Shown piece by piece: positions 4,238 to 39,258 of a DNA stretch of 41,240 bases. The first letter of the stretch is position 1. Every line of letters begins with the position of its first letter. Source of the DNA: a virus; IMG/VR virus record IMGVR_UViG_3300010885_011541, positions 1 through 41,240 of that record; one strand, written 5' to 3'. Both the position numbers and the translations under genes were made by a program. The notes beneath the pieces are model-generated. The model saw nothing but the letters and a program-made list of their open reading frames with translations. It searched no databases and was not told the DNA's origin.

Positions 4238-7200
4238 ATGAGCTCAACGGATCGTCAAAATAACCTGTTAGTTAGTGAAGACTGGCAGAAAATATACCAA
4301 TCGTTCAAAAACGCAGATTTTCAAAGCTATGACTTTGATAATCTACGTCGAACAATGATAGAGTACATCCGCACCAATTTCCCAGAAGATTTCAACGATT
4401 ATATTGAGTCAAGCGAGTACTTGGCCCTTATCGACCTCATTGCGTATGTGGGTCAAAGCATAGCTTTCCGCGTTGATTTAAATGCTCGTGAAAACTTTTT
4501 AGAGCTAGCAGAACGTCGAGACAGTGTGCTACGTCTAGCACGTATGATTAGCTATAATGCTAAACGCAATACTCCGGCTACAGGTCTTCTTAAATTCAAT
4601 ACTGTAAGCACTACAGAAACAGTTATTGATAGCAATGGCAGAAATCTAGCCGGACAGTATATTACATGGAACGACCCAAGCAATGCCAATTGGTATAATC
4701 AGTTTATCAGTGTAATTAATGCGGCCTTGCCACTTACTCAACAGTTTGGAAACCCTATCGATTCTGCAACTATCTACGGAGTTCCTACAGCACAGTACAG
4801 ATTTAATGCTAGTAATACTAACGTTCCAATTTACGATTTTGCAAAAACAATTGCAGGACGTAGTATGAATTTTGAAATCACAAGTACTACCTTTAAGGGC
4901 AAAGACTACATTTATGAAGAAGCTCCTAAAGTAGGAAATAAGATAGCCTGTATATATAGTGATGATGGACACGGTGCATCTAGTCCACGCACTGGTTTCT
5001 TTTTTAATTTTGTACAGGGCTCGTTACAAACAGCCACATTTTCAATAACTAATCCAACTGCAAACCAGCAGATAGATATTGCTACTAGAAGTATAAATGA
5101 CACTGATGTATGGCTGTATAGTCTTGACAGTAAGACTGGTTTAGAATCAGACCTGTGGTCAAAAATTCCTACACTTAGTGGAAACAATGTTATCTATAAT
5201 AGTTTAAACAATTCTATTAAAAATATCTATAGTGTAGTAACCAGAGCAAACGATGCAATTAGTCTAGCATTTAGTGACGGTACATTTGGAAACTTGCCTC
5301 AAGGGAATTTTTTAGTATACTATCGAACAAGTAACGGACTAAGTTATAATATAAATCCAGGTGATATTGTTAACGTATTGTTTAACATTCCTTACACCAG
5401 TGCAAACAATCAATCAGAGACATTGTCTATCAGTTTAAGTCTTCCTACTAGCGTAATAAATTCAGCTTCTACTGAAACAAATTCTAGTATTAAAACTAAT
5501 GCACCTCAAACTTACTATACACAAAACAGAATGATAACAGGCGAGGACTATAATATTAGTCCGTTGTCGGCTAACTTACAAGTAGCAAAAGTTAAATCAG
5601 TAAACAGAACTAGCAGTGGTATCAGCAGATATTTCGATTTAGTAGATCCTACAGGCAAATACAGCACTACTAATTTGTTTGGAGATGACGGAATATTGTA
5701 TCAAGAAGTATATACTGCTTCTACTAATTTTTCGTTCGTCACTGATTTAGACATACAAGGTGTTATCAATAATACAGTATACGAGATTTTAAATAGTCCA
5801 GACCTAAGAAACTTTTACTATGCAAACTATTTAGATTATCTAAATGTCAGCGTTACAGCATCATGGGTTAGTGTTACAACTGATAGTAATAGTGTTTCAG
5901 GTTATATTAGTATTCCAGGACAAGGGATTCCTTATAAATTAGGAAGCTATACAGCAACAGATTTAAAATTCGTAACAGCTGGATCGTTAATTAAATTCGT
6001 TCCGCCTCCTGGAAAATATTTTAATACTTACACCAATACATTAATGACTGGAACAGCAACAGTTCCAAATTCTGCAAGTTATTTGTGGGCACAAGTTGTT
6101 AGTGTATCGGGCGACGGCACCGCTAATAATACTGGAATTTTATCCAACGGTAACGGACCAGTTGTACTAGACAAAGTAATTCCAACAGGTGCAGTGGCAG
6201 TACAAATTATGCCACAGTTTAATAGAATTATTAGCCCAACTGTTATTACTTCTATGATCGAATTAATAAAGGCAAACGAAAACTTTGGCTTACGTTATGA
6301 TGCTACATTGACTTCTTGGCAAATTGTATATGCAAACAATTTAGATTTTACAAGTGCATTTAGTTTAGGAAATCAAGGAAATACAACTAGTCAAAATATA
6401 GATGCTAGCTGGATTCTATTGTTCACGTCTAATACTATTCAGTATACTATTACATCACGAAAACTTCGTTATGTTTTTGAAAGCGACAAAGAGTTAACAT
6501 TCTATTTTGATACTAGTGTAAAAGTATACGATTCTACATCTAGTTCTACAATCTTAGACACAATTAAAGTGCTAAGTGTTAACACACAGCCGGATGCATT
6601 GACACCATTTACCGACGATCTTACATGGCAAATTGTGTCAGAGTATATTGGTAAAGATGGATACGTTGATCCTAAAAAGATTGTTGTAACATTTGCAGAT
6701 TCTACAGGAACTGGAGTAGTGGACAACCCACAGCTATTTTCAGACATAGTAAATCCAACAACAAATATTAGCAGTAAGTTTATTGTAGAACAACGATATG
6801 TTATATCAAACGGTCAAGAAGATTACAAATATGTTTCTAATAATCCTACTACTGGCCCCGTAGTAATTTTAAATTCATCGTCAGCTGGCGCCTTTTCTTC
6901 GTATCCTGACGGTACATATTTTTATTTTATCGATACTGCAACAGTAGTCAAGTTGAACTTGACTGGCGTACTTAAACTAGTTCCTACATTGGATTACAAG
7001 GTGTATATCGGCCGAAGTGATTTAAAATTCCAATACATCCACAGCGCAGATTACGACAGTAGAATCGATCCGGGTTCTAGCAATATTGTTGACATCTATG
7101 TACTAACTAAAAATTATGATACACTGTTTAGACAGTGGTTATTGGCCGGCGGAGTAGAACCGTTGCCACCGAGTTCAGACGAATTAAATTCGTTATTGTC

Positions 7201-7699
7201 TCCAAACCTAAACTTAATTAAATCAATTTCAGATGAAATAATTTATCATCCAGTGAACTATAAGTTATTATTTGGAATTAATGCAGACCCTAGTGTACAA
7301 GCTACATTTAACGTTATGATAAATCCAAATAGCGCAGTTTCTAGTTCAGACGTTAAGGCAAGAATTTTAACAGCGATAAACACGTTTTTTAGTTTAGATA
7401 ATTGGGGCTTTGGCGACACATTTTATTTTACAGAATTATCAACCTATGTTATGAATCAATTAACCCCAGATGTAATTAATTTTGCAATAGTACCAACACA
7501 GCCTGGCTCTTATTTTGGTAACTTGTTTGAAATACATTGCCCTAGCGACCAGATTTTAATAAGTTCTGCTACCACCGATAATATTGTCATTGTTTCAGGA
7601 TTTACCAGCACAAACTTAAAAACAATTACGTCTGCACCTTCGTCACTATCGATTAGCACACAAACTGTAACTAGTTCAAAGTTTGGAGGTAACAGTTAA
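4238..7699 (+). CDS. 6: gp6-like baseplate wedge subunit
   Basis: This is a 1153-aa baseplate wedge protein; T4 gp6 has 660 aa, so it is enlarged. The N-terminal 120 residues carry the strongest match to the family: FKNADFQSYDFDNLRRTMIE, then YLALIDLIAYVGQSIAFRVD and NARENFLELAERRDSVLRLA, ending at ISYNAKRNTPA. This N-terminal region is shared by gp6/GpJ proteins. The GpJ-like core includes VVTRANDAISLAFSDGTFGN and the NRMITGEDYNISPLSA segment typical of the family. The central 500-900 region is beta-rich and variable, probably the source of the extra length. The C-terminal part has HPVNYKLLFGINADPSVQA followed by an SSDVKARILTAINTFF helix. In the virion gp6 forms the iris ring joining wedge units around the hub. 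Its start is supported by AGGG at 4227-4230, and its stop overlaps the next ATG by 1 nt, so the next gene is translationally coupled. Confidence 0.93.
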   Translation: MSSTDRQNNLLVSEDWQKIYQSFKNADFQSYDFDNLRRTMIEYIRTNFPEDFNDYIESSEYLALIDLIAYVGQSIAFRVDLNARENFLELAERRDSVLRLARMISYNAKRNTPATGLLKFNTVSTTETVIDSNGRNLAGQYITWNDPSNANWYNQFISVINAALPLTQQFGNPIDSATIYGVPTAQYRFNASNTNVPIYDFAKTIAGRSMNFEITSTTFKGKDYIYEEAPKVGNKIACIYSDDGHGASSPRTGFFFNFVQGSLQTATFSITNPTANQQIDIATRSINDTDVWLYSLDSKTGLESDLWSKIPTLSGNNVIYNSLNNSIKNIYSVVTRANDAISLAFSDGTFGNLPQGNFLVYYRTSNGLSYNINPGDIVNVLFNIPYTSANNQSETLSISLSLPTSVINSASTETNSSIKTNAPQTYYTQNRMITGEDYNISPLSANLQVAKVKSVNRTSSGISRYFDLVDPTGKYSTTNLFGDDGILYQEVYTASTNFSFVTDLDIQGVINNTVYEILNSPDLRNFYYANYLDYLNVSVTASWVSVTTDSNSVSGYISIPGQGIPYKLGSYTATDLKFVTAGSLIKFVPPPGKYFNTYTNTLMTGTATVPNSASYLWAQVVSVSGDGTANNTGILSNGNGPVVLDKVIPTGAVAVQIMPQFNRIISPTVITSMIELIKANENFGLRYDATLTSWQIVYANNLDFTSAFSLGNQGNTTSQNIDASWILLFTSNTIQYTITSRKLRYVFESDKELTFYFDTSVKVYDSTSSSTILDTIKVLSVNTQPDALTPFTDDLTWQIVSEYIGKDGYVDPKKIVVTFADSTGTGVVDNPQLFSDIVNPTTNISSKFIVEQRYVISNGQEDYKYVSNNPTTGPVVILNSSSAGAFSSYPDGTYFYFIDTATVVKLNLTGVLKLVPTLDYKVYIGRSDLKFQYIHSADYDSRIDPGSSNIVDIYVLTKNYDTLFRQWLLAGGVEPLPPSSDELNSLLSPNLNLIKSISDEIIYHPVNYKLLFGINADPSVQATFNVMINPNSAVSSSDVKARILTAINTFFSLDNWGFGDTFYFTELSTYVMNQLTPDVINFAIVPTQPGSYFGNLFEIHCPSDQILISSATTDNIVIVSGFTSTNLKTITSAPSSLSISTQTVTSSKFGGNS

Positions 7700-23815: not shown

Positions 23816-26452
23816 ATGGCTTTACAATTAATAAACACAGGAACAACTCCAGGTGATAAGACAGGAGATACATTACGCAGTGCAGGTTTGAAAATTAATG
23901 CAAACTTTACAGAAGTATATGCTTCGTTAGTCAACTCCTATACATTGCCTGTAGCAAGCGGTGCAACATTAGGAGGAGTTAGGATTGATGGAACTACAAT
24001 ATCTATTAGTAATAACGGAATTATTTCTGCAAATTATGTAAATTATTCATTACCAATTGCAACGACTAGCGTACTAGGCGGTGTCAAAGTAGATGGAACT
24101 ACAGTAGTAATTAATTCCGGAACCATTTCTGCTCCTTATACATATTCTTTGCCGCAGGCTAGTACTAGTGTAAGAGGAGGTGTAAAAGTTGATGGCACTA
24201 CTATTACTATTAATCCTACAACTGGAATTATTAGTAGTGTATCGAATTATGCACTACCAACAGCAACAACTAGTGTACTAGGCGGAGTCAAAGTTGATGG
24301 AACAACTATTACTATTAATGGTAGTGGAGTAATAACTTCTAATACAACTTATAGTTTACCAACAGCGACAACTAGTGTACTAGGTGGCGTAAAAGTAGAC
24401 GGCTCTAGTGTTACTATTAATAATGGAGTAATTAGTTCAAACTATAGTTTGCCTCAGGCAACAACTAGTGTACTAGGCGGAGTAACAGTAGACGGTACTA
24501 CAATTAGTTCAACAAGTGGCCAGCTAGCAGTTGTTCCTGCTAACATTAAAGCAGTTGCCGCAGCCATGCTAACGGGTGGAACACAATCTGGAATTTCATT
24601 TAGTTATAACAGTGGTACAGGATTAATGTCAACTACTGTTACTGGCGGCAGTGGTGGATCAGGAATTACGGGAGTCACAGTACAGAACGCAGGAGTTACA
24701 GCGGGTGTAGCAAGTGCTGTTACTACATTAAACTTTACAGGTACTGGTGTTACGGCAGGAGTTAGTGGTAATACTGCAACATTGACGATTAACACTGGTA
24801 GTTACACTTTACCTCAAGCAACCACGGTAGTCCTAGGAGGAGTTAAACCGGACGGCACTTCAATTGTAGCCAATAGCGGAGTAATTTCCAGTGTAGTACC
24901 AGTAGCAACAACTAGTGTGTTGGGTGGTGTTAAACCAGATGGATCGACGATTACTATCAGTGGTAGTGGCGTTATCAGTGCGTCTCAATATACTTTACCA
25001 ACAGCCAGTACAGGAGTACTAGGAGGTGTTAAGGTTGACGGTACAACAATTAGCATCAATGCTGGAGTTATCACAGCTAACTACACAAACTATTCATTGC
25101 CAACGGCTAGTACAAGTGTGTTAGGTGGTGTTAAGGTTGACGGTTCGACTATTAGTATTGTTGGCGGAACTATTACAGCTAATTATACCAATTATACACT
25201 ACCAATTGCAAGCCTAAGTGCATTAGGAGGAGTCAAGCCCGATGGCACTACTATTACAATAAATCCAATTACTGGAGTCATTAGCGGGACAAGTAGTTAT
25301 ACTCTACCAACAGCTAGTGTAAGCACATTGGGCGGTGTTAAGATCGATGGAACAACTATTACTATTAATGGATCCGGAGTCATATCAGCTGTTCAAAATA
25401 CATATTCATTGCCTGTTGCAAGTACCAGTGTGCTTGGCGGTGTCAAAGTAGACGGATCGACTATTAGTATCGTTAGTGGAACTATTACAGCTAACTATAC
25501 AAATTATTTATTGCCGACAGCAACTACAACTATATTAGGCGGTGTCAAAGTTGATGGTACAACTATTACTATAAACAACGGAGTAATCAGTTCTTCTTCA
25601 GCATACACTTTACCAGTAGCAACTACAAGCGTTTTGGGCGGAGTTAAGGTCGATGGATCGACTGTTACTATTAATAATGGAGTAATTAGTTCAGCACAAT
25701 ATACATTACCAACAGCAACATCAACTGTGCTTGGCGGAGTTAAGGTCGATGGAACAACAATACTTTCAAATAACGGAATAATTTCTTATTCACTACCAAC
25801 AGCTGGCACAAGTACACTAGGTGGTGTTACAATTGCCGCGGTAGCTACAAGTGGTATTAACAATACTAGTGGTGCAATAAGTTTAGCCACAGCAAGTACA
25901 ACACAGTTAGGTGGTGTTAAGGTTGACGGTTCGACTATCACTATTAGTTCGGGAGTCATAAGTTCAACACAATATACATTACCGACTGCAACAACTAGTG
26001 TATTAGGTGGCGTAAAAGTAGACGGCACGACTGTTAGCATTAGTGGTGGTGTAATCAGTGCGTCAGGTAGTTTATTAAGCAGATCTACAGTAGCAACAAC
26101 TACTGCAAGTTTAGCATCTAATGCCGCTGCCACTGCAACGGTCACTGCCGCAAAAGGATATGCATTATACAGTATTCAAGTCAGTGCTGGAGCTTGGGTA
26201 TCGATATATACCAGTTCAACTGCGCAGTCAAGTGATAGTAGCAGAACAATTACAACAGATCCAACACCAGGTAGCGGCGTAATTGCAGAGGCAATATCTA
26301 CTACTGCAACTACAACTTATTTTACTCCTGCGGTATACGGTTTTAATGCTGATGGAACTCCTAGCACAAATATGTATTTGAGAATTACAAATAATAGTGG
26401 CGGCACAACCGCTATTACAGTAACTATAACATACTTAAAATTAGAAAATTAA
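23816..26452 (+). CDS. Repeat-stalk tail fibre protein
   Basis: The product is 878 aa and begins with MALQLINTGTTPGDKTGDTL, the N-terminal signature of many marine phage fibre proteins (NTG..PGDKTGDTLR.A..K.N.NF.E.Y). Residues 42-750 are a tandem array of 19 units of about 29-35 residues with the pattern Y-LPxATTSVLGGVKVDGTTITI-x-GVIS. One large interruption lies after unit 6 (a Gly/Thr/Val-rich insertion of about 85 residues, nt 24510-24800). The C-terminal 125 residues (ATVTAAKGYALYSIQVSAGA to TYLKLEN) form a distinct beta-rich knob. AAGGA at 23804-23808 precedes the ATG by 7 nt. The gene follows the giant wedge protein by 4 nt and precedes the S53 peptidase by 1 nt. I infer a trimeric beta-stalk with a receptor-binding or virion-decoration tip. 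Confidence 0.85.
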   Translation: MALQLINTGTTPGDKTGDTLRSAGLKINANFTEVYASLVNSYTLPVASGATLGGVRIDGTTISISNNGIISANYVNYSLPIATTSVLGGVKVDGTTVVINSGTISAPYTYSLPQASTSVRGGVKVDGTTITINPTTGIISSVSNYALPTATTSVLGGVKVDGTTITINGSGVITSNTTYSLPTATTSVLGGVKVDGSSVTINNGVISSNYSLPQATTSVLGGVTVDGTTISSTSGQLAVVPANIKAVAAAMLTGGTQSGISFSYNSGTGLMSTTVTGGSGGSGITGVTVQNAGVTAGVASAVTTLNFTGTGVTAGVSGNTATLTINTGSYTLPQATTVVLGGVKPDGTSIVANSGVISSVVPVATTSVLGGVKPDGSTITISGSGVISASQYTLPTASTGVLGGVKVDGTTISINAGVITANYTNYSLPTASTSVLGGVKVDGSTISIVGGTITANYTNYTLPIASLSALGGVKPDGTTITINPITGVISGTSSYTLPTASVSTLGGVKIDGTTITINGSGVISAVQNTYSLPVASTSVLGGVKVDGSTISIVSGTITANYTNYLLPTATTTILGGVKVDGTTITINNGVISSSSAYTLPVATTSVLGGVKVDGSTVTINNGVISSAQYTLPTATSTVLGGVKVDGTTILSNNGIISYSLPTAGTSTLGGVTIAAVATSGINNTSGAISLATASTTQLGGVKVDGSTITISSGVISSTQYTLPTATTSVLGGVKVDGTTVSISGGVISASGSLLSRSTVATTTASLASNAAATATVTAAKGYALYSIQVSAGAWVSIYTSSTAQSSDSSRTITTDPTPGSGVIAEAISTTATTTYFTPAVYGFNADGTPSTNMYLRITNNSGGTTAITVTITYLKLEN
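23939..26067 (+). repeat. Array of 19 in-frame coding repeats in the fibre gene
   Basis: The repeats are coding, about 87-105 nt each, and encode variants of LPxATTSVLGGVKVDGTTITI. Conservation is clear in protein and only partial in DNA because synonymous codons vary (for example ctaggcggtgtcaaagta, ttaggtggtgttaaggtt). Unit 6 lacks the KVDG core and leads into a long insertion; unit 17 has lost the VDG core; unit 8 starts VVP instead of YxLP. The pattern implies old expansion followed by drift, with room for unit gain or loss by recombination. Confidence 0.9.
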
Positions 26453-26453
26453 T

Positions 26454-28031
26454 ATGTCTAATCAAACAACAATTAGTATATACCTTAAAAGAGACAAGCA
26501 TGAAAACGGCATGTCTCTCCAGGAGTATACCGACGCAATTATAGCAGGCACACAACCAGTGCTTAGCCAGGATGCGTTTGCTTATCAATTTGGCGCTATC
26601 GAAGATGAAATGGCAGTGGTTGAGTCTTGGGCCACTACAAATAATTTAACCGTAGTAGAATCAAATCAAGCAACGGCCACTATAAAAGTTCTAGGCTCAT
26701 TTGAACAATTTGATTCTTTGTTTAGCATAACTTTAAAACTTGCCACAACAGAAGATGGGCATGAATATCAGACTCACGACGGTAACGTGGTTGTGCCGAG
26801 TGAAATTGATGATGTGGTTGCAATGATTTTAGGATTTGATAACCAACCAATTTTTTTACATAATGCTGTTGAGTTTGATGAGCAAATTCACACCAATGAT
26901 GACCCAGCGGTGTACCCGACCAAGGCAGCGGTAACACCTGTGCAGGTTGCAACAGCATATGGATTACCAGCTGGCAACGGATATGGTGGTTGCATTGGAT
27001 TATTGGAATTAACTTATAGTGGATATGTTGCAGGATACAATACAACCGATGTGACAAATAGTTTTACCCGCATTGGCCTTACTGCACCAACCGTTGTTGA
27101 TGTGTTGGTAGACGGAGCAACTCGAAGCACTACAAGTGATGCTGAAACCATGCTGGACATTTATTGTGCCGGCGGTGTAGCACCAAAAGCAACTATTGCA
27201 GTTTATATGGCACCAAACAGCGGCCAAGGTTTTTACGATGCAATTCTAGCGGCGTCAACTGACAAAACAAATATGCCAAGCAGTCTTGGAATCAGTTGGG
27301 GAACCAGCACTGAAGGCAATGGAGATTACTTGACCTCAGCATTCCAAGCATGTGTGGCAGTGGGAGTAACTTGTTTTGTGGCAACTGGAGATTCAGGAGC
27401 CAATAATTTAGTAACAGGATATCCAGGAACAAATGCTTATCAAATTGCCAGTGGCGGCACTAGTTTATATCTTAATACTGATAACACTTGGAATAACGAA
27501 GCTGGGTGGTCCGGCGGTGGTGGCGGAATTAGTGCAATAGTTAGTTTACCTAGCTGGCAAACGGGATTAACTTCTACAACTGTAACTGCTAGTACTACGG
27601 GCACAGCAACCACATTGCCTCGTCGAGGCATTCCGGATATCAGTGCGCCAGCAGACCCCAGCACTGGATATCAATTTTATGTCAACAGCGCACTAGTACA
27701 ATATGGAGGCACAAGCGCGGCAGCTCCGTGGTTAGCTGGTATGATTACCCGTTTAACTCAACTATGGGGCCGTAGAACATCATTTGCTAATTCGCTGTTT
27801 TATTCAAATACACAGGCATTTACTGATATAACATTGGGTAATAACCGTAACGGATATACTACAGGATATACAACTACCACAGGTTGGGATGCCGCAACTG
27901 GATTAGGAAGCCCAAAAGGTGCTGAACTTTATAAATTATTCCACACTGGCAGTACTTTTCCCAAACAAAATTATGGATTTAGACCCACTACTGGCTCTAC
28001 ATACCCTAGACGTACGACTGGTGCTAGGTAA
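26454..28031 (+). CDS. S53 family peptidase (sedolisin/kumamolisin type) with prodomain
   Basis: This 525-aa protein is a full serine-carboxyl peptidase. Residues 1-145 match a prokumamolisin activation domain (SLQEYTDAI, then the FGSFEQFD-like segment and VVPSEIDDVVAMILGFDN). The catalytic domain starts about 160 (TPVQVATAYGLPAG). The S53 catalytic residues are all in place: E231 and D235 in SDAETMLDIYCAGG, D313 in ATGDSGA, and S421 in GGTSAAAPW. Other family landmarks are APKATIAVYMAPN, SLGISWG, the Gly-rich GGGGGIS loop, PDISAPADPSTGYQFYV, and the calcium-site segments FTDITLGNNRNG (D458) and GWDAATGLGSP (D479). Spacing is close to kumamolisin. No signal peptide is visible. A 25-residue Thr/Arg/Pro-rich tail follows the domain. 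The gene lies 1 nt after the fibre gene with no ribosome binding site, so it is probably translated by coupling and made late with tail proteins. Its target is unknown; virion maturation or host-surface digestion are both possible. Confidence 0.93.
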   Translation: MSNQTTISIYLKRDKHENGMSLQEYTDAIIAGTQPVLSQDAFAYQFGAIEDEMAVVESWATTNNLTVVESNQATATIKVLGSFEQFDSLFSITLKLATTEDGHEYQTHDGNVVVPSEIDDVVAMILGFDNQPIFLHNAVEFDEQIHTNDDPAVYPTKAAVTPVQVATAYGLPAGNGYGGCIGLLELTYSGYVAGYNTTDVTNSFTRIGLTAPTVVDVLVDGATRSTTSDAETMLDIYCAGGVAPKATIAVYMAPNSGQGFYDAILAASTDKTNMPSSLGISWGTSTEGNGDYLTSAFQACVAVGVTCFVATGDSGANNLVTGYPGTNAYQIASGGTSLYLNTDNTWNNEAGWSGGGGGISAIVSLPSWQTGLTSTTVTASTTGTATTLPRRGIPDISAPADPSTGYQFYVNSALVQYGGTSAAAPWLAGMITRLTQLWGRRTSFANSLFYSNTQAFTDITLGNNRNGYTTGYTTTTGWDAATGLGSPKGAELYKLFHTGSTFPKQNYGFRPTTGSTYPRRTTGAR

Positions 28032-28083: not shown

Positions 28084-28692
28084 ATGCACAAGGACGCAAC
28101 AGGAATTCATATAGAAGGGCACATTCATATATTTGACCCTACGACTAAAGAAACCTTCGTGAACAAACGTAATGCTATTCATTATGAAAATATGAGTTTA
28201 GCGTTGGCAAAATCGTTGGCAAATACATCAACTGGCGGGTATGTATATCAGATGGCATTTGGCAACGGTGGAACAGCCGTCGATCCTACAGGTATTATTA
28301 CATATTTGACACCAAATACTAGCGGAACTAATGCAAGTTTATATAATCAAAAATATGCAAAAATAGTCGACCCTAATGCCGCAACTAATGTTGACCCAAC
28401 CCGTAATTTTACAGAAGTCCGTCACACAACAGGCACAACTTATTCTGATTTATTTGTTTCTTGTTTACTAGATTACGGCGAGCCCGACAATCAAACAGCA
28501 TTTGATACAGTTAACAGTAACAATAGTTCTTTTACATTTGATGAATTGGGACTAGTAAACTATGATACTACTGGAAATGCCCTATTGTTGACACATGTTA
28601 TATTCCACCCTGTATTAAAAAGTTTAAATCGTTTGATTCAGATCGATTATACAGTACGTATCCAAAGCCTTACCGGCTTGGTATCGGTATAA
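28084..28692 (+). CDS. Virion structural protein, tail/fibre-associated (unknown role)
   Basis: I do not recognise a characterised domain in this 202-aa protein. The N-terminus has a His-rich beta segment (GIHIEGHIHIFDP) followed by KRNAIHYENMSLALAKSLAN. The middle has GGYVYQMAFGNGGTAVDPTG and TEVRHTTGTTYSDLFVSCLL. The C-terminal half (FTFDELGLVNY, LLLTHVIFHPVLKSLNRLIQ, then IDYTVRIQSL) is a beta-rich pattern seen in small structural proteins of marine T4-like phages, where such genes sit among tail fibre genes. No signal peptide or membrane segment is present. The first gene of its own late unit, it has a weak GAGAG binding site, and its stop overlaps the ribosome binding site of the following fibre gene. 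A fibre connector or baseplate attachment role is an inference from context. Confidence 0.6.
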   Translation: MHKDATGIHIEGHIHIFDPTTKETFVNKRNAIHYENMSLALAKSLANTSTGGYVYQMAFGNGGTAVDPTGIITYLTPNTSGTNASLYNQKYAKIVDPNAATNVDPTRNFTEVRHTTGTTYSDLFVSCLLDYGEPDNQTAFDTVNSNNSSFTFDELGLVNYDTTGNALLLTHVIFHPVLKSLNRLIQIDYTVRIQSLTGLVSV

Positions 28693-28702
28693 GGAGCCAT
28701 AG

Positions 28703-30946
28703 ATGACATATCAAGTTCAATTTACTGATTCAAGCAATCCTAATAAACCGCAGATTACAGTACTCGACGGTACTGTTAATAAGACTTCTACTAGCCTTGG
28801 TTTTGTGGGACAACAGTATCCTGGCTATGCTAGTACAATAGCAAACAATTTTTTACATTTGTTAGAAAACTTTGCATCTCCAATCGCTCCAGGATCCGAT
28901 CCTAATAATCCAATGGGTCCTCCTGTGCAAGGACAGTTATGGTATGACACTAGTACAAATATTTTAAAAGTATATGATGGCACAACTTGGACTACCGCAG
29001 GCAGTTTAAAGAAAAGTTCGTCTGCCCCTGCAGTTGCCAATAGTATTGCTGGAGATTTATGGGCCAACACTACAACTAGTCAGCTGTATATCTTCTCAGG
29101 TTCAGCTTGGTTATTAGTCGGACCTCAGTTTAGTACAGGCACTCAGTCTGGACCACTTGCTGAAACAATTATAGATACCGATAACATATCGCATACAGTG
29201 GTTAGCATTTACGCTAACAACATACGAATTTCTATTATTAGTAGCGATCAATTTATACCTAAATCCACTATTGCAGGATTTGATACAATTTATCGAGGCA
29301 CAACATTAAGTAATATAGGTTTAACTAAATTCTGGGGAGTTGCACAAAAAGCAGATGCCTTGTTAGTTAACGGTAATACTATTCCGGCAAGCAATTTTTT
29401 AACTACTGACGGAACTACTACAACTACAAATGCTCCTCTTAATATTAGAACAGATTCAGGATTAACAATTGGATCCAATTCAAGTTTTATATTTGATATT
29501 GAAAATAGTGTTCCTACAATTAAATCAACACTAAGCGGTTCTGGTATAAACTTTAATTTAACACAATCGGCAGTTACTAGTCCAGTATTACACATAAACT
29601 CTAATGGCCGCGTGGGTGTCGGTTTTAGTAATACAGCTCCTGTTTCTACATTAGATGTAAAAGGCGTGTTGACAATCAAGGATGATGTTTCAAATAGTAT
29701 TACAAGTTACCTAAATGTAACAAGTACACTGGATACATCATATACTCCTGGAACTTTATTTACTACAGCCACTGGTAGTATCGTTACACAAGGCGGCATT
29801 ACTATAGCGAAAAAATCAACTTTTGGTGATGACATTACATTTTATGGCCAGGAGTTCTTTAATTACTACGATAATACTGGCGCTCCAATCGCCGCACCTG
29901 TCCTATTACCAGGATATAGTACAAGTTCTACGGAAGCCACTAGTTTAAATATTCCATACATTCCAGCTGGTGTATATGATATTGGTAGCAGTACAAGAAG
30001 TTTTAGAAATATTTATGCTACTAACTTCTCAGGAAACTTTAGCGGAACATTTACAGGAACGCTAGAAGGTAGTATTAGCGGAACAGCCGCAGCCTTAGCA
30101 AGTCCTACGGTTTTTAGTTTAACAGGAGATGTTACTAGTAACAATTTAAGTTTCAACGGACAAACTACAACTGGTACAGCAGTATTCCAAACAAAAATTA
30201 GTCCGGACTTCATTAGTGCGCAATCTGCCGCAACTGATTCTTATGCTAATGACCAATTATTAGTTTATAGATCTGGACAAGGTTTGCTAAGAATGACTAA
30301 AGCAACCCTGTTTAATCACCAAGCATTGGTTCCTATTGCAACAATTTTACCTTTTGCAGGAGCCATTGTTCCTGCAGGTTATCTATTGTGTGACGGTGCA
30401 GAAGTTTTAATTAGTCAATACCCAGGACTATACAGCGTTATAGGATTTACTTACCGAGCGTCAGGCTTGTTAAGAGGATTGGGTACATTTGGATTACCTG
30501 ATCTTCGTGGTCGTTTCCCATTAGGTGCAGATAGTATGAACAACAATATCTCTGTACCTAGTAAAGACGGCTCCGGAACACAAGTTACAACAACATTAGA
30601 TTTGAATGGTAATACTAGTTCAACTGCTAATCGTGTAAATGATGCATCTGCTAAAACTATTGGTTCTGGAAATTCAACTGCTAATGGTACTGTAACTTTA
30701 ATTTCTTCTAATTTACCAGACCATAATCACAGTCTTAATGACGGAACTAGTCAATTCTATGCAGTTAACACACCACGTGAAGCTCCGGATCCTTACGCAA
30801 TTGGTAACGTTGGTACGACAGGTTCGGGAACAGTTGGTTCGGGAATTTTAAATACAGGTAGCGTTAATGGTGCTACTGGTATCCCAGTCAATGTTATGAA
30901 CCCGTATGCCACAATCAACTACATAATCTTTACGGGCGCACTATAA
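28703..30946 (+). CDS. Tail fibre protein with tail-collar (gp12-like) tip
   Basis: The protein has 747 residues. AAGGAG (28691-28696) overlaps the preceding stop, 6 nt before the ATG. Residues 1-195 are an anchor shared with the next two fibre proteins (LENFASP...GQLWYDTSTN...LKVYDGT...GDLWANTTTSQLYI...STIAGF). A beta-rich stalk follows with fibre-type segments such as GRVGVGFSNTAPVSTLDVKG and IGSSTRSFRNIYATNFSGNF. Residues 545-612 form a phage tail-collar domain (PFAGAIVPAGYLLCDGAE to FGLPDLRGRFPLGADS). The tip has an HxH pair (H674, H676 in PDHNHSLNDG) like the metal-binding HxH of T4 gp12, and ends with the typical NPYATINYIIFTGAL. I infer a trimeric receptor-binding short fibre. Its stop overlaps the next ATG by 1 nt. 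Confidence 0.88.
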   Translation: MTYQVQFTDSSNPNKPQITVLDGTVNKTSTSLGFVGQQYPGYASTIANNFLHLLENFASPIAPGSDPNNPMGPPVQGQLWYDTSTNILKVYDGTTWTTAGSLKKSSSAPAVANSIAGDLWANTTTSQLYIFSGSAWLLVGPQFSTGTQSGPLAETIIDTDNISHTVVSIYANNIRISIISSDQFIPKSTIAGFDTIYRGTTLSNIGLTKFWGVAQKADALLVNGNTIPASNFLTTDGTTTTTNAPLNIRTDSGLTIGSNSSFIFDIENSVPTIKSTLSGSGINFNLTQSAVTSPVLHINSNGRVGVGFSNTAPVSTLDVKGVLTIKDDVSNSITSYLNVTSTLDTSYTPGTLFTTATGSIVTQGGITIAKKSTFGDDITFYGQEFFNYYDNTGAPIAAPVLLPGYSTSSTEATSLNIPYIPAGVYDIGSSTRSFRNIYATNFSGNFSGTFTGTLEGSISGTAAALASPTVFSLTGDVTSNNLSFNGQTTTGTAVFQTKISPDFISAQSAATDSYANDQLLVYRSGQGLLRMTKATLFNHQALVPIATILPFAGAIVPAGYLLCDGAEVLISQYPGLYSVIGFTYRASGLLRGLGTFGLPDLRGRFPLGADSMNNNISVPSKDGSGTQVTTTLDLNGNTSSTANRVNDASAKTIGSGNSTANGTVTLISSNLPDHNHSLNDGTSQFYAVNTPREAPDPYAIGNVGTTGSGTVGSGILNTGSVNGATGIPVNVMNPYATINYIIFTGAL

Positions 30947-32865
30947 TGACTTATTCACTTTACTTAACTAACGGTACACTTAAGACAACAGTTGTAGATG
31001 GTACAATTGATCAAACAGCTACCGATTTAGCACTAGTTGGAAAGAACTCAACAGGTTATGGTATATTTTTTAATGATAACTTTATATATCTATTAGAAAA
31101 CTTTGCCAACACTAGCCAGCCTAATAAACCATTAACGGGGCAGTTATGGTACGACACTGGCGAAAACAGATTAAAAGTTTATAACGGTACAACATTTGCA
31201 GTTACCAGCGGAACTATTGTGGCTAATTCTGTTCCGAGTGGAATAACATCGGGAGATTTATGGATTGATAGTGCTAATGGCCAATTGTATTTTAACGACG
31301 GAACTTCAACAACATTGGCTGGCCCTATCTATTCTCGAGGCCAGGGCATTAGCGGTTTTAACGTAGAAACTGTAATCGATGTAAATGGAGTATCTCATAC
31401 AGTTTTAGTTCTGTATGTAGCCGCTACCATCGTAGGTATTTACAGCAAAGACACGTTTGTTCCATCGACTACTATTCCAGGATTTACTAGTACTGCAACA
31501 ATCACAGCATATCAGATAGCTAACTCTTTGATTGTTACAAGTGTGACATCGGGAACACTAGTTGTAGGTCAGACATTAAATGGTGCAAACGTTATTGCAA
31601 ATACTGTAATAACTAATCAAACTTCGGGAACAATTGGAGGAGCAGGTACATATTCTGTTAGTACTTCAAATATTATCGGTAGTTCTGTAGCACCGATTAC
31701 TATGATTGCTACTAGTGATATTATTAAAACTGGTTTTAATACAGGATCGTATCCGGGAATATTATACAGCGGACTAGTTAGCCAGGCACAAAGTTTATTA
31801 GCGGCAAACGGTAGTTTGAAGACAGCAGAAAGTTTCTTAACTACCAGCGACAGCAATACAGCATCTGGTACACTAAGTATTCAAAATAATACGCCGTTGA
31901 TATTAGGTGCCGCATCTAATATGACAATGCAGATTGATCCTAATTCAAATACTTTTACAATAAATTCAAACACATTAGGACAAAACTTTGGTATTAACTT
32001 AAAAAATAGCGGTGGAACATTATCCAACAGTTTGTATATTAATACCAATACGCAACGTGTGGGAATATATACTGCTAATCCAGGAGCTATGTTAGACGTT
32101 GCAGGGGACGTTATTGTTCAAGGTAATCTAACAGTACAAGGTAGTAGCCAAGTTATCAATAGTACTATTGTTTCTATTGCGGATAAAAATATCGAACTGG
32201 CTAAGGTAGCAAGTCCAACTAATACAACGGCCAGCGGTGGTGGTATTACAGTTAAAGGTTTAACGGATAAGTTCATATCCTGGACTGCCACGGCAAATAC
32301 TAGTAGTGCATCTACCAATACCGGTTATTGGAATCTAAGTGACTTTGTTAATGTAAGCACTTCGGGAGCAAATGCAGGCTATTATATAAATGGACAGCAA
32401 GTTTTAAGTGCTACAAGTTTAGGAAACACTATAACTTCTGCTCCTGCGCTTACCAGTGTAGGCACTTTATCTAATCTAGCAGTGTCAAATCTAAGCATTA
32501 CTGGCAATACCATTGCTTATTCTAGTATCCAAGTGTCAGGAAATGTTACATTACTGCCAAAAGGACTAGGATATGTTAGTGTCAGCGGTTTTAAGATAAA
32601 GAATCTAGCAGATCCTTACGATGATACAGATGCCGCTACTAAATTCTATGTGGATGAGGCGATTGCTAAAGCCTCATTGGGCATTAGCTTAGTAACAGCT
32701 GGTCTGTCGGATGCAGAAATTGGATCACAATTGCTACAAAGAATGTTCCCTCCAGGCGAACATCGTGCAAATACCTTGTGCAGAGTACAATGTAATCCAA
32801 GCGGAGTTATTAAACTTTACGCTTTACAAGCCGGAGTTTGGACTTGGGAGCTTGATTTAGCCTAA
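30946..32865 (+). CDS. Tail fibre protein, second copy of the anchor family
   Basis: This 639-aa fibre protein is translationally coupled to the preceding one (TAATG overlap). Residues 1-180 repeat the shared anchor (TTVVDGTIDQTATDLALVGK, FIYLLENFAN, GQLWYDTGENRLKVYNGT, GDLWIDSANGQLYF, PSTTIPGF). Directly after PGF comes a roughly 75-residue module (IVTSVTSGTLVVGQTLNGAN to GGAGTYSVSTSNIIGSS, nt about 31480-31720) that the first fibre lacks and that is also found in the protein at 35407. The stalk has RVGIYTANPGAMLDVAGDVI and NLTVQGSSQVINSTIVSIAD, typical of phage fibres. The C-terminus (FKIKNLADPYDDTDAATKFY, then MFPPGEHRANTLCRVQ to WTWELDLA) is a short tip I cannot classify. I infer an adsorption fibre or fibre-network subunit. 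Confidence 0.82.
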   Translation: MTYSLYLTNGTLKTTVVDGTIDQTATDLALVGKNSTGYGIFFNDNFIYLLENFANTSQPNKPLTGQLWYDTGENRLKVYNGTTFAVTSGTIVANSVPSGITSGDLWIDSANGQLYFNDGTSTTLAGPIYSRGQGISGFNVETVIDVNGVSHTVLVLYVAATIVGIYSKDTFVPSTTIPGFTSTATITAYQIANSLIVTSVTSGTLVVGQTLNGANVIANTVITNQTSGTIGGAGTYSVSTSNIIGSSVAPITMIATSDIIKTGFNTGSYPGILYSGLVSQAQSLLAANGSLKTAESFLTTSDSNTASGTLSIQNNTPLILGAASNMTMQIDPNSNTFTINSNTLGQNFGINLKNSGGTLSNSLYINTNTQRVGIYTANPGAMLDVAGDVIVQGNLTVQGSSQVINSTIVSIADKNIELAKVASPTNTTASGGGITVKGLTDKFISWTATANTSSASTNTGYWNLSDFVNVSTSGANAGYYINGQQVLSATSLGNTITSAPALTSVGTLSNLAVSNLSITGNTIAYSSIQVSGNVTLLPKGLGYVSVSGFKIKNLADPYDDTDAATKFYVDEAIAKASLGISLVTAGLSDAEIGSQLLQRMFPPGEHRANTLCRVQCNPSGVIKLYALQAGVWTWELDLA

Positions 32866-32886
32866 TAATTTTAATGCGTAAACCTG

Positions 32887-32895
32887 CATAAATAC
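32887..32895 (+). promoter_or_regulatory. T4-type late promoter box upstream of the third fibre
   Basis: CATAAATAC, extended to CATAAATACTA, lies in the 50-nt gap after the second fibre gene and ends 20 nt before the next ATG. It matches the extended T4 late consensus from position 2 onward. A binding site AAGGA at 32903-32907 lies between box and ATG. Confidence 0.75.
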
Positions 32896-32915
32896 TAGGA
32901 ATAAGGAACGAGATA

Positions 32916-34448
32916 ATGTCATACACGATTAATCACTATAACGGAGCAATATTAACAACAGTAGCCGATGGCACAGTTGATACTAGCACCGATCTTACCC
33001 TGGTAGGCAAGAACTACGCTGGGTACGGACAAGCGCAAAACGACAATTTTGTTTGGCTATTAGAAAACTTTGCTAATACAGCATCCCCACCTAACCCATT
33101 AGCTGGGCAGATTTGGTTTGATAGCTCTCCGGGAGCTACAAAATTAAAGTTTTTTGATGGAACAAACTGGAGAACAACTGGCGGTGCGGCAATAGGCCCA
33201 TCAAGTCCAACGGGATTAACAGTTGGAGATTTCTGGTTCAATACTACTTCTAATCAATTGTTTGCATATACAAGCGATCCAGTCGCTCCGTTTAAGCTAA
33301 TTGGACCACAAGGCGTATCGGGTGCAGGTTTGACACAGATGCAATCAACTACTGTTCAAGATACTAATGGTAATTCACATGCAATTATCCAGGCTATTGA
33401 TAATAATCAAACTATTTTTGTTATTAGTTCTGATTCTGCGTTCACTTTACAAAATTCAATCAACTCGATTACTGGCTTTGGTCGTATCCAACAAGGTATT
33501 ACACTAGCATATACTGATTCCAACGCAACTGGCGCAGTAGCAGGTGTTACTAATCCTAGTGTTAATCACAGATTCTGGGGTACTGCAACCAATGCAGACA
33601 AATTGAATGGAGTTGCGGCTAGTGGATATGTGCTAGCGGCCAATCCAACATTTAGTAATTCAGTTAACTTTCCATTAGGGTATACAGTTGGAAGTGCAGG
33701 TGCACCTCCACTTAAAGTTTTTATCAACTCGACATCTAGTCACCCAACGGTACAGGGCGCGATTACAGATACTATTGTTTTCCAAACGACCCTAGCTAAC
33801 CAATCATTAGCTTATCCACTGACTATCAAGGGAGCTGATTTGTTACCTGGTGGTAGCCAAGCTAATCTTCCATTTAGTACTGGGGTTAATAATATCGGAA
33901 GTAGCACTTACCAATGGAATAACGTATATGCTACTAATTTCCTTGGAACTGCTACTAACGCAAACAACTTAAATCTTAACGGTTCTTTTGTTACAGCAAA
34001 TACAGCCGCAGTTGCCAATACAATCGCCGCAAGAGATTCTACTAATACAATTTTTGCAACTACTTTTAACGGAACAGCTACCGCTGCCGACTATGCTGAC
34101 TTAGCAGAAAAGTATCTTTGCGATAAAGAATATGCAGTTGGCACAGTGGTATCTGTAGGCGGCACTCAGGAAATGACAGCTTGCAAATCAGGAGATCGTG
34201 CAATTGGTGCAGTTAGTGAAAATCCAGCTTTCATGATGAATCAAACATTAAAGGGTGGACTATATATTGCACTAAAAGGGCGTGTACCAGTTAAGATTAA
34301 AGGTACAGTAGCTAAAGGTGACCGCATTATTGCAGATAATGATGGTTGCGGAATTGCTCTTAATCACAGTCATCAGGATGTATTTGCTGTTGCCTTACAA
34401 TCTAGTGATGACGAAGGTGTCAAACTAGTTGAATGTGTAATTTTATAA
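32916..34448 (+). CDS. Tail fibre protein, third copy of the anchor family, G2-peptidase-like tip
   Basis: The product is 510 aa with its own late promoter. Residues 1-190 are the shared anchor (TTVADGTVDTSTDLTLVGK, FVWLLENFANTASPPNPLAG, QIWFDS, GDFWFNTTSNQLFAY, ITGFGRIQQGITLAY). The stalk is short and contains VNNIGSSTYQWNNVYATNF, the same type of segment as in the first fibre. Residues 392-510 form a distinct tip: TAADYADLAEKYLCDKEYAV, then VVSVGG, AIGAVSENPAFMMN, GLYIALKGRVPVKIKGTVAK and GDRIIADNDG. This pattern is common at the ends of cyanophage fibres and resembles the Peptidase_G2/IMC family of self-cleaving fibre tips, but I cannot confirm the catalytic residues by eye. It could be a plain receptor-binding tip. 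Confidence 0.83.
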   Translation: MSYTINHYNGAILTTVADGTVDTSTDLTLVGKNYAGYGQAQNDNFVWLLENFANTASPPNPLAGQIWFDSSPGATKLKFFDGTNWRTTGGAAIGPSSPTGLTVGDFWFNTTSNQLFAYTSDPVAPFKLIGPQGVSGAGLTQMQSTTVQDTNGNSHAIIQAIDNNQTIFVISSDSAFTLQNSINSITGFGRIQQGITLAYTDSNATGAVAGVTNPSVNHRFWGTATNADKLNGVAASGYVLAANPTFSNSVNFPLGYTVGSAGAPPLKVFINSTSSHPTVQGAITDTIVFQTTLANQSLAYPLTIKGADLLPGGSQANLPFSTGVNNIGSSTYQWNNVYATNFLGTATNANNLNLNGSFVTANTAAVANTIAARDSTNTIFATTFNGTATAADYADLAEKYLCDKEYAVGTVVSVGGTQEMTACKSGDRAIGAVSENPAFMMNQTLKGGLYIALKGRVPVKIKGTVAKGDRIIADNDGCGIALNHSHQDVFAVALQSSDDEGVKLVECVIL

Positions 34449-36626: not shown

Positions 36627-36971
36627 ATGGACGAACGAATTGAAAAAGCATTTGAAGTAGTAAATTATATGGCTACGTTATCAAATCAAAAACGTATCAT
36701 TTTAGAAGAATACAATCAAAAATTAATTTATTTTGTTGACGGCGCAACATTCAAAATAACTCAAGATCTAATCAGCTTTGTCAGCACGATGGCAGACAGG
36801 CCATTTGATTTGGTCCTAGTTGATTCAAATAATCTTCCTGTCAAAATCTCAGACCCTAAAAAGTTCTTGAGTGATATTATCACAGTATATTCAAATGCAT
36901 CCGAAGAGTACTTTGAAAAATATTGTTCTATAAAATCCAAAAGAAAAATTGCTGACATGATTGCGCTATGA
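36627..36971 (+). CDS. Small conserved-looking phage protein, unknown function
   Basis: This 114-aa, probably soluble, mostly helical protein starts the accessory cassette. Its segments are MDERIEKAFEVVNYMATLSN, QKRIILEEYNQKLIYFVDGA, FDLVLVDSNNLPVKISDPKK and FLSDIITVYSNASEEYFEKY. I recognise no catalytic motif. GGAG at 36617-36620 lies 6 nt before the ATG, and its stop overlaps the start of the next gene (ATGA), so it is coupled to the first glycosyltransferase. The promoter-proximal position suggests either a partner of the transferases or an independent early protein. Confidence 0.6.
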   Translation: MDERIEKAFEVVNYMATLSNQKRIILEEYNQKLIYFVDGATFKITQDLISFVSTMADRPFDLVLVDSNNLPVKISDPKKFLSDIITVYSNASEEYFEKYCSIKSKRKIADMIAL

Positions 36972-37816
36972 CACATGGAATTGTAATTTTTGCTCAAAAT
37001 AATGCCAGCATTGATTATGTAAAACTTGCCACATTCGCGGCCAAACGGGCACAACACTTTTTAGATTTGCCAGTTAGTTTGATTACAGATGCTAGGGGCT
37101 GGTTAGAAACAAGTCAGCCTGACCATCCGTTCGATCAAGTGATAGATGTAGAATTTTCCAATACTGTACAAAAGCGAACTTTTTTTGATGGTGCATTATT
37201 TTCTAAACATTTAGAATGGAAGAATTTTGCTAGAAATCGTGCATATGATTTAAGTCCATATGATAAGACTTTGGTAATCGATAGCGATTATATTATCAAC
37301 AGTGACAATTTAAAAATTGCATTTGAAAGAGATGCAGAACTACAGATATATTCCAGTAGCACAGATCTGGCCGCTTGGCGCCCACTGCAAGAATTCACGA
37401 GAATAAATCCTTACAGTATTCCATTTTACTGGGCTACTGCTTTTGTGTTTGAAAAAAATATTGCAACTGAAACATTTTTTAATTTAGTTTCTTATATCAA
37501 AATTAATTGGAATTATTTTAGAATATTGTATAATATAGATACATCTTTATATAGAAATGACTATGCTTTTAGTATAGCTATTCACTTAATGAACAATAAA
37601 TCGGTCGGAGATTTTGCTATGGAACTTCCAGGTAGCATGATTTTTACTAAAGATAAAGATATACTAGTTTCTATAAAAGAATCTTCGATGCAATTTTTAG
37701 TAGAAAAAGAAAAATATACAGGAGAATATCTCCTTGCTAAAACTCAAGCACTTGATATACATGTTATGAACAAGCTAAGTCTTAGCAGATTTATCGACGG
37801 AGGTTCTGGTGTCTAA
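36968..37816 (+). CDS. Probable glycosyltransferase with DSD motif (pair 1, copy A)
   Basis: The 282-aa protein starts GIVIFAQNNASIDYVKLATF and carries PYDKTLVIDSDYIINSD, with a DxD-type D105-S106-D107 preceded by hydrophobic residues. This is the nucleotide-sugar/metal motif of GT-A transferases; the layout (N-terminal Rossmann-like strand, DxD near residue 105) resembles GT8-like enzymes. The WATAFVFEKN segment and a late NKLSLSRFIDGG follow. It shares layout and phrases with the next gene (xxFLVLAQN...DxDYI/Q, PYDxTxVxDxD), so the two look like distant paralogues. It begins inside the previous stop (ATGA). The sugar and acceptor are unknown; possible acceptors are virion protein, modified DNA bases or host glycans. 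Confidence 0.7.
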   Translation: MTHGIVIFAQNNASIDYVKLATFAAKRAQHFLDLPVSLITDARGWLETSQPDHPFDQVIDVEFSNTVQKRTFFDGALFSKHLEWKNFARNRAYDLSPYDKTLVIDSDYIINSDNLKIAFERDAELQIYSSSTDLAAWRPLQEFTRINPYSIPFYWATAFVFEKNIATETFFNLVSYIKINWNYFRILYNIDTSLYRNDYAFSIAIHLMNNKSVGDFAMELPGSMIFTKDKDILVSIKESSMQFLVEKEKYTGEYLLAKTQALDIHVMNKLSLSRFIDGGSGV

Positions 37817-38645
37817 AGGTTTTTTAGTATTAGCTCAAAATACAGATGATGTTGATTACATTCAACAAGCATACGCATTGGCATTAAGTATTAAATTACA
37901 TCAAAACGATGTTGATAAATTATCATTGATTACAAATGATGAAGTTCCGGAAGAATACAAAAGTGCATTTGATCAAATAATTCCTATTCCGTATTTTAAT
38001 AAAGACATTAATAGTTTGTTTAAGACAGAACATAGATATCAAATGTACTATGCAACTCCTTACGACGAAACAATAGTATTAGATACTGATATGTTATTGT
38101 TAGATGATATTTCGTTGTGGTGGGATTACTGTAGCAATCATGATATTAAATTCTGCAACAGAATTAAAAATTATAAATTAGAAACAGTAGTCGATACTGT
38201 GCATAGAAAAGCATTTATATCTAACAATTTATCTAGTCCTTATTTTGCATTACATTACTTTAAGAAAAGTGATTACGCAAAAGAATTTTATAAAGTATTG
38301 GAATTTGTATGCAATAATTGGCAATGGTGTTGGTCTAAATTTGCTCCAGAAAATTATCAATCCTGGTCTAGTATGGATTTAGCAGTAGCTATCACTATAG
38401 AAATATTAGGAGCGCATGAACAAGTTTTAGATGTATTGAATCCAATGGAATTTATTCATATGAAACCTCTTTTACAAGGTTGGAACAGTACTCCAGAAAC
38501 TTGGCAGGATTCTGTAAATTATAATTTCACAGGCGACATCCTCACGGTCAGCAATATTCGTCAACACAAACTGTTTCATTATGTAGAAAAGGATTTTTTA
38601 TCACCTAAAATTCTAAAGAAGTTAACGGAGTTAACAAATGGCTAG
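37809..38645 (+). CDS. Probable glycosyltransferase with DTD motif (pair 1, copy B), GTG start
   Basis: The product is 278 aa and starts with GTG inside the last codons of the preceding gene. A strong GGAGG at about 37799-37803 supports this start. The N-terminus KGFLVLAQNTDDVDYIQQAY is followed by LALSIKLHQNDVDKLSLITN and then YDETIVLDTDMLLLDD with D92-T93-D94 as the DxD metal/nucleotide motif. A Trp-rich segment (NNWQWCWSKFAPENYQSWSS) and HMKPLLQGW follow; a late His near HMKP is reminiscent of GT-A enzymes that use a C-terminal His for the metal. Its stop overlaps the next gene by 8 nt. The acceptor is unknown. Confidence 0.75.
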   Translation: MSKGFLVLAQNTDDVDYIQQAYALALSIKLHQNDVDKLSLITNDEVPEEYKSAFDQIIPIPYFNKDINSLFKTEHRYQMYYATPYDETIVLDTDMLLLDDISLWWDYCSNHDIKFCNRIKNYKLETVVDTVHRKAFISNNLSSPYFALHYFKKSDYAKEFYKVLEFVCNNWQWCWSKFAPENYQSWSSMDLAVAITIEILGAHEQVLDVLNPMEFIHMKPLLQGWNSTPETWQDSVNYNFTGDILTVSNIRQHKLFHYVEKDFLSPKILKKLTELTNG

Positions 38646-39258
38646 ACTTAAAAAATTAAAAAATCTTGTTGAAGTTCCGAGCAAATTCTATGCACATTAC
38701 GATTCAGTCACTAGTGAAATTGTGTCTGTAAATAATTTTAGAAACTTAGAATGCCCTAGTGCTGTAGAAATACCGTTTGATACGTACGAACGATTACTAA
38801 TTGGTAAAGATAAATTTGAAGATTTTTATGTAGGAGTTGTAGTAGAAAATGGAAACCTAGTAATGGGTCTAGTATATCGAAAATTATTATTGGAACACAA
38901 TTTTAATAATAGATTATTATCTTGGATAGATGAAAAGACAGAATCTCCTGAGATTGAAATTCACTGGGACGGCGCCAACCAAAAATGGATATTTGTTGCC
39001 TCTGATGAATTTAGACAAAAATATTATGACAATAAAGTCCAGTCTCTTGAATTGGCATTTTTTATAACACTTAGAGGAGATCCTAATTTTTTAATTAGGA
39101 GTATTAATTTTAATTTGAAAAAATTAGTTATGGATTGGACTATTGTAGATTTTGAAACTAAGTGGGAAAATAATATTAATTTAATTTCTATCACTAGTAA
39201 TTTAGCTAGTTTAAAATATTCGTTAACCGTACAGAAAACAGATGACCAAAATTATTAA
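38638..39258 (+). CDS. Unknown protein inside the glycosyltransferase cassette
   Basis: This 206-aa protein has no motif I recognise. It opens with a basic segment (MARLKKLKNLVEVPSKFYAH) and continues with IPFDTYERLLIGKDKFEDFY, VGVVVENGNLVMGLVYRKLL, then EIHWDGANQKWIFVASDEF and FFITLRGDPNFLIRSINFNL. It is beta-rich with no signal peptide or membrane segment. GGAG at 38627-38630 precedes the ATG by 7 nt; it overlaps the preceding gene by 8 nt and the next by 17 nt. The tight overlap on both sides suggests it works with the transferases, perhaps as an acceptor or scaffold, but this is inference. Confidence 0.6.
   Translation: MARLKKLKNLVEVPSKFYAHYDSVTSEIVSVNNFRNLECPSAVEIPFDTYERLLIGKDKFEDFYVGVVVENGNLVMGLVYRKLLLEHNFNNRLLSWIDEKTESPEIEIHWDGANQKWIFVASDEFRQKYYDNKVQSLELAFFITLRGDPNFLIRSINFNLKKLVMDWTIVDFETKWENNINLISITSNLASLKYSLTVQKTDDQNY

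Follow-up and report, generated by a model that had tools for sequence, protein, structure and literature searches.

An S53 (sedolisin/kumamolisin) peptidase gene in the tail operon of a jumbo phage belongs to a recurrent gene pair, in which the C-terminal domain (CTD) of a fibre is followed at near-constant spacing by a clan SB protease. The protease ends in a conserved C-terminal tag, and proteases of the S53 and S8 families have been exchanged behind CTDs with the tag shared by both types. The central result of our analysis lies in these three features (tag, constant pairing of CTD and protease, S8/S53 exchange), all of which had escaped a preliminary description of the same DNA. The DNA analyzed is a stretch of 41,240 nucleotides from the IMG/VR record IMGVR_UViG_3300010885_011541, hereafter called the window, and its relevant features are collected in Table 1.

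Table 1. Features of the fibre-protease region and its neighbours in the window
Feature	Position	Strand	Basis or remark
gp6-like baseplate wedge	4238..7699	+	PHROG 10646, E 6e-289
Giant wedge/structural protein, 5370 aa	7699..23811	+	positional counterpart CBB_236
Fibre gene, 878 aa	23816..26452	+	Pfam Phage_head_fibr 8e-28
CTD of the fibre (126 aa), a putative tip for protease docking	26072..26449	+	
TAA-T-ATG junction, fibre/S53	26450..26456	+	
S53 (sedolisin/kumamolisin) peptidase, 525 aa	26454-28031	+	Pfam, phmmer, Foldseek on AF2 model
Pro-kumamolisin activation prodomain, aa 1-140	26454..26873	+	PF09286
S53 catalytic domain, aa 158-494	26925..27935	+	alignment to 1t1e/1gt9
E231 codon	27144-27146	+	S53 catalytic domain
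D235 codon	27156-27158	+	S53 catalytic domain
D313 codon	27390-27392	+	S53 catalytic domain
S421 codon	27714-27716	+	S53 catalytic domain
C-terminal tag GSTFPKQNYGFRPTTGSTYPRRTTGAR, aa 499-525, putative docking peptide	27948..28028	+	
PHROG 11259 structural protein	28084..28692	+	CBB counterpart CBB_230

The window encodes a complete S53 peptidase

The preliminary description had proposed a complete S53 peptidase with the catalytic set E231, D235, D313 and S421, and both statements proved correct. Pfam places Pro-kuma_activ (PF09286) above its cut-off over residues 3-130 of the 525-aa protein (E 3.4e-12) and a clan SB subtilase model over residues 238-436, while phmmer aligns residues 6-494 to intact pro-kumamolisin (1t1e) as the best solved relative (E 7e-70). 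A Foldseek search with the AF2 model of the protein (mean pLDDT 72) likewise returned 1t1e first (E 5.8e-36, TM 0.79), followed by kumamolisin-As, TPP1 and sedolisin. The catalytic Glu-Asp-Ser (E231, D235 and S421) and the oxyanion Asp (D313) have aligned counterparts in kumamolisin, and all four are conserved without exception in 34/34 non-redundant phage homologues. In the calcium-site segment, where the AF2 model is unsure, D458 and D479 are also invariant (34/34), G477 is found in 32/34 and position 459 is variable. The comparison with the nearest relative yields a dN/dS of ~0.07 (0.062/0.945), and the gene is hence under purifying selection; together with the Pfam, phmmer and Foldseek matches, this value rules out a chance ORF or a misassignment.

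At the N-terminus of the protein (MSNQTTISIYLKRDKHENG) no hydrophobic stretch was seen, and there is no apparent signal peptide. The window protein is likely made as a zymogen and may activate itself via its prodomain. The earlier suggestion of a zymogen thus fits this protein, in which the prodomain is present, but it does not extend to the whole family, since a 12-member sister subclade of the phage enzymes (support 100) has lost the prodomain and kept the catalytic residues. No separate prodomain gene was found near prodomain-less S53 genes in the sample of loci searched with the window prodomain as query.

An S53 enzyme is unusual for a phage, as had been stated: none was found among 50,697 phage records, and the window protein has no PHROG match. 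A scan of IMG/VR revealed at least 35 loci with S53; our scans list the best 80 loci, and the counts given here and below thus refer to the closer members of each family. In a phylogenetic tree, the phage S53 proteins form a single clade separate from 79 cellular relatives (SH-aLRT 99.9). A change of frame splits the S53 gene, giving two ORFs, in L035 (contig 3300020733_000017), L058, L086 and L207, which reflects either decay or an assembly error. Giant-virus records (Homavirus, Barrevirus) with S53-like proteases near this fold in BFVD represent a separate viral occurrence.

A conserved fibre domain precedes clan SB proteases

The product of the fibre gene consists of an N-terminal T4 gp10-like anchor (~aa 1-45), a long repeat shaft and the conserved CTD, and it matches PHROG 15343 (3e-129, 14 stretches) and PHROG 958 (baseplate wedge). 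Because of the gp10-like anchor and the baseplate-wedge match, we place the fibre on the baseplate. The AF2 model of the CTD is a confident beta-sandwich (pLDDT 96). Since its fold neighbours are only generic jelly-rolls (best Z 7.9), no function was taken from them.

The fibre stop codon ends at 26452 and the S53 start codon begins at 26454, in agreement with the tail-operon position one nucleotide behind a fibre gene that had been noted before. No AGGA, GGAG or GAGG core precedes the window protease start, and among 34 non-redundant S53 pairs the TAATATG junction occurs in 25 and a Shine-Dalgarno-like core in six. The 1-nt gap without such a core makes translational coupling of fibre and S53 plausible.

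The same fibre family precedes S53 in 22/22 S53 loci inspected, and five kinds of locus (L007, L010, L022, L029/L031 and L036) hold the fibre and the S53 gene in an otherwise unrelated operon. The part common to the fibres is the C-terminal 126 residues; the N-terminal anchors vary, with the gp10-like motif occurring in 22/70 CTD fibres. A search with the CTD only gave at least 71 unique loci, two of them cut off and 69 uncut. Among the matches listed, a clan SB protease follows the CTD in 68 of the 69 uncut non-redundant loci (37 S53, 31 S8), at a spacing of -1 to +3 nt in 65/68 and of +35 nt in the other three, which belong to one phage type; the commonest spacing is exactly 1 nt. No S53 remnant was found in L079, the sole CTD locus without a protease among the 69. 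Searches starting from S53, from S8 and from the tag all give the same pair of CTD fibre and protease; from the S8 side, a CTD fibre precedes 69/69 proteases with enough upstream sequence among the matches listed.

Some CTDs precede a non-protease or an unrelated gene, and the CTD therefore has uses without a protease. In the cyanophages S-SCSM1, S-BM3 and Sf-CH1b and at the second CTD of the cyanophage S-H9-1 a tagless non-protease lies behind the CTD, and in PSS2, S-CBS2 and S-CRES1 unrelated genes follow 23-33 nt after it. The non-protease (L264:4310-6280 in S-SCSM1, L270 in S-BM3, L183 in Sf-CH1b and L179 in S-H9-1) has 608-767 aa, ends in ARTT and is without a Pfam match. For S-SCSM1, the annotation lists both the CTD fibre and the adjacent non-protease as virion proteins, on the basis of a virion MS study (PMC9602691). 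This annotation supports a virion-borne slot behind the CTD; for the proteases, a place on the virion is presumed.

A C-terminal tag common to both protease families

The tag consensus, [FY]PKxNxxxRPxxGxx[YFW]PR, is common to the S53 and S8 proteases of the module. Residues 501-525 are the most conserved part of the S53 protein, with 81% mean identity to the majority residue compared to 31-73% in other 25-aa blocks, and residues 499-525 are unstructured in the AF2 model (pLDDT <50). An HMM built from S53 tags alone picks up the S8 partners with E down to 6e-9, and an HMM built from S8 tags alone recovers 33/34 S53 partners at E<=0.01, while none of 954 decoy ORFs and none of 353 cellular ORFs reaches E 0.01 with the tag HMMs. 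Since the reciprocal searches and the decoys agree, the S53 and S8 tags are related. The tag was not found in the cellular S53 relatives represented by these 353 ORFs, nor in the other phage ORFs tested.

A protein-blind scan with a DNA pattern of the tag gave at least 77 unique ORFs, i.e. 66 S8, 10 S53 and one cut off. Among the matches listed, a CTD fibre lies upstream of 49 of the 50 tagged ORFs with room for it, the lone exception being a 67-aa S8 fragment, and the tag was present on no other kind of protein. Two matches of the first tag scan (L050/L052) turned out to be one antisense coincidence. L099 (6383-7957) carries an added domain of ~120 aa after the tag, so the tag need not be terminal. 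Domains are also appended past the tag in several S8 partners (L179, L180, L215 and L236); either the tag is functional at an internal position, or the appended domains are further tip domains.

Among the cultured cyanophages, S8 subtilases follow the CTD in S-H9-1, S-MbCM7, S-CREM1, S-CAM1, S-H38, S-RSM4 and ACG-2014e, and they carry the tag in common with S53. The presence of S8 peptidases in cyanomyoviruses is a published annotation (T4-GC518 of P-HM1/P-HM2; PMC3037559). At least three S8/S53 changes are needed on the CTD tree, and the CTD of L224, which is followed by S8, is ~80% identical to the CTDs of L212 and L034, which are followed by S53 after the same 1-nt gap. The simplest reading of the exchange would be that one catalytic domain was replaced by the other before a tag that was either kept or re-acquired.

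The fibre and the protease are an accessory pair in a virion operon

The window derives from a T4-superfamily jumbo phage. The genes for gp25, gp6 and the 5370-aa protein lie upstream of the fibre and S53 genes on the same strand, and for the gp6 and PHROG 11259 products the matches lie in Rak2-like and related jumbo phages, the best of them in Sinorhizobium phage Phosso and Agrobacterium phage Atu_ph07. In Phosso and Atu_ph07 the PHROG 11259 gene comes directly after the giant gene or past two small genes, with no fibre or protease in between, and in CBB it sits elsewhere in the region. In a survey of related phages for the same gene position, as advised in the preliminary description, the fibre-S53 adjacency recurred wherever S53 loci were inspected. 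The operon of the cultured relatives Phosso, Atu_ph07 and CBB contains the giant gene and lacks the protease. MS of CBB virions found CBB_230, CBB_236 and CBB_237 (PMC5259590), the last being the homologue of the window gp6-like wedge. Since relatives exist without the pair and the counterparts of its neighbours are virion-borne in CBB, we regard the fibre and S53 genes as an accessory pair in a virion operon.

Three consecutive fibre-like genes are located at 28703-34448 (starts 28703, 30946 and 32916) and have a common N-terminal segment (PHROG 15511). The one at 28703 ends in a tail collar domain, whereas an autoproteolytic domain of the Peptidase_G2 type closes the one at 32916-34448. Several successive genes at 36968-40860 have no Pfam or PHROG matches and appear glycosyltransferase-like by eye, and beside them lies an antisense ThyX-like gene that is cut by the window end.

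Proposed role of the protease and alternatives

We propose that the fibre gene and the S53 gene form a two-gene module. The beta-sandwich of the CTD would form the tip of the fibre. The protease, encoded by its own gene and perhaps translationally coupled to the fibre across the 1-nt gap, would be held on this tip through its C-terminal tag; mounted on the virion in this way, it would probably cut host surface proteins at adsorption. We consider this proposal probable as a whole. S8 and S53 would be interchangeable behind the same kind of tip since both bear the tag. Adjacency, fixed spacing, shared tag and exchange, taken together, argue for attachment of the protease to the CTD through the tag; the binding of tag to CTD, the location on the virion and the substrate are all inferred. 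A host surface protein is the most likely substrate because the module depends neither on the giant gene nor on the type of operon, and digestion of the host surface seems the best of the three roles proposed earlier. The 1-nt gap and the co-occurrence would also be expected of two genes that are transferred as one cassette while their products never touch, and the tag might serve as a signal for assembly or for self-inhibition.

The tag-bound protease might alternatively process its partner fibre at assembly, e.g. by removal of a chaperone-like piece, in which case action on the host would be unneeded. Such a maturation step would suit the tight coupling of the genes and the way in which each protease is strictly matched to a single fibre domain, one to one; intramolecular fibre proteases do exist, and the neighbouring gene at 32916-34448 has its Peptidase_G2 domain. 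However, the CTD runs to the last codon of the fibre gene and thus leaves no C-terminal piece for removal, CTD fibres without a protease exist, and an enzyme of a secreted type whose place can be taken by either S8 or S53 points to broad cutting more than to cleavage at specific sites. We hence regard fibre maturation as unlikely. Quite improbable, in our view, is a free late enzyme that is made in infected cells and either released at lysis or directed against host proteins, with the fibre linkage reflecting co-transfer of neighbours and the tag being a stability or folding signal: the lack of an apparent signal peptide would indeed keep the enzyme inside until lysis, but under neutral linkage one would not expect to see a near-constant gap, a tag spanning two families and an exchange behind conserved CTDs. 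Processing of the 5370-aa protein, a further role suggested before and in line with the shared operon, is very unlikely, since the module is found in phages without a giant gene nearby, as in the five kinds of locus with an unrelated operon, and since the protease is lacking in cultured relatives that do possess the giant gene.

Comparison to known systems and implications

Compared to kumamolisin and pro-kumamolisin (MEROPS S53; 1t1e, 1gt9), the phage S53 proteins are alike in prodomain, E-D-D-S set and overall fold, and perhaps in the calcium-site segment; they differ in that they have no apparent signal peptide, bear the extra C-terminal tag and are encoded in a tail operon after a fibre, and in that one subclade is without the prodomain. 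The S8 peptidases of PHROG 9158 (e.g. in S-CREM1, S-H38 and S-RSM4) are preceded by the same CTD fibre at a gap of -1 to +2 nt and carry the same tag, but possess an S8 instead of an S53 catalytic domain. In T4-type phages, gp38 is a separate tip adhesin on gp37 and is encoded directly after the fibre gene. Gene order is the only comparable trait, as the tip protein of the module is a tagged protease, not an adhesin, and its attachment is putative. Phage depolymerases and tailspikes are usually fused beta-helix enzymes acting on polysaccharide; they share with the module, as proposed here, a tail-carried enzyme that breaches the host surface, whereas the protease of the module is separately encoded and exchangeable.

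In open-access papers, with few subscription journals and no preprints covered, neither the pairing nor the tag nor an S53 enzyme of a tailed phage was found to be described, and in the searchable open-access literature cyanophage S8 peptidases are mentioned as peptidase annotations only, with no link to a fibre or tag. Hence, the S8 peptidase annotation in cyanophages is already known, and no description of the module itself was found in the literature searched.

If the proposal is true, the module would provide the first home for S53 in tailed phages, a function for PHROG 15343 and PHROG 9158, both listed as 'unknown function', and a short peptide of natural origin with which enzymes could be attached to phage fibres. 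The cultured cyanophages S-CREM1 (fibre SCREM1_164, peptidase SCREM1_165; laboratory host a Synechococcus) and S-H38 (peptidase PQC14_gp095) carry the module, which makes it directly testable. We give a little better than an even chance to the wider view that many aquatic phages of several types use a conserved beta-sandwich tip with a separately encoded clan SB protease bound through a common docking peptide, S8 and S53 being swapped with host or habitat. Most of the tail enzymes known so far act on polysaccharide or peptidoglycan; the module, if widespread, would imply that surface proteins are often a barrier to aquatic phages or a target of them.
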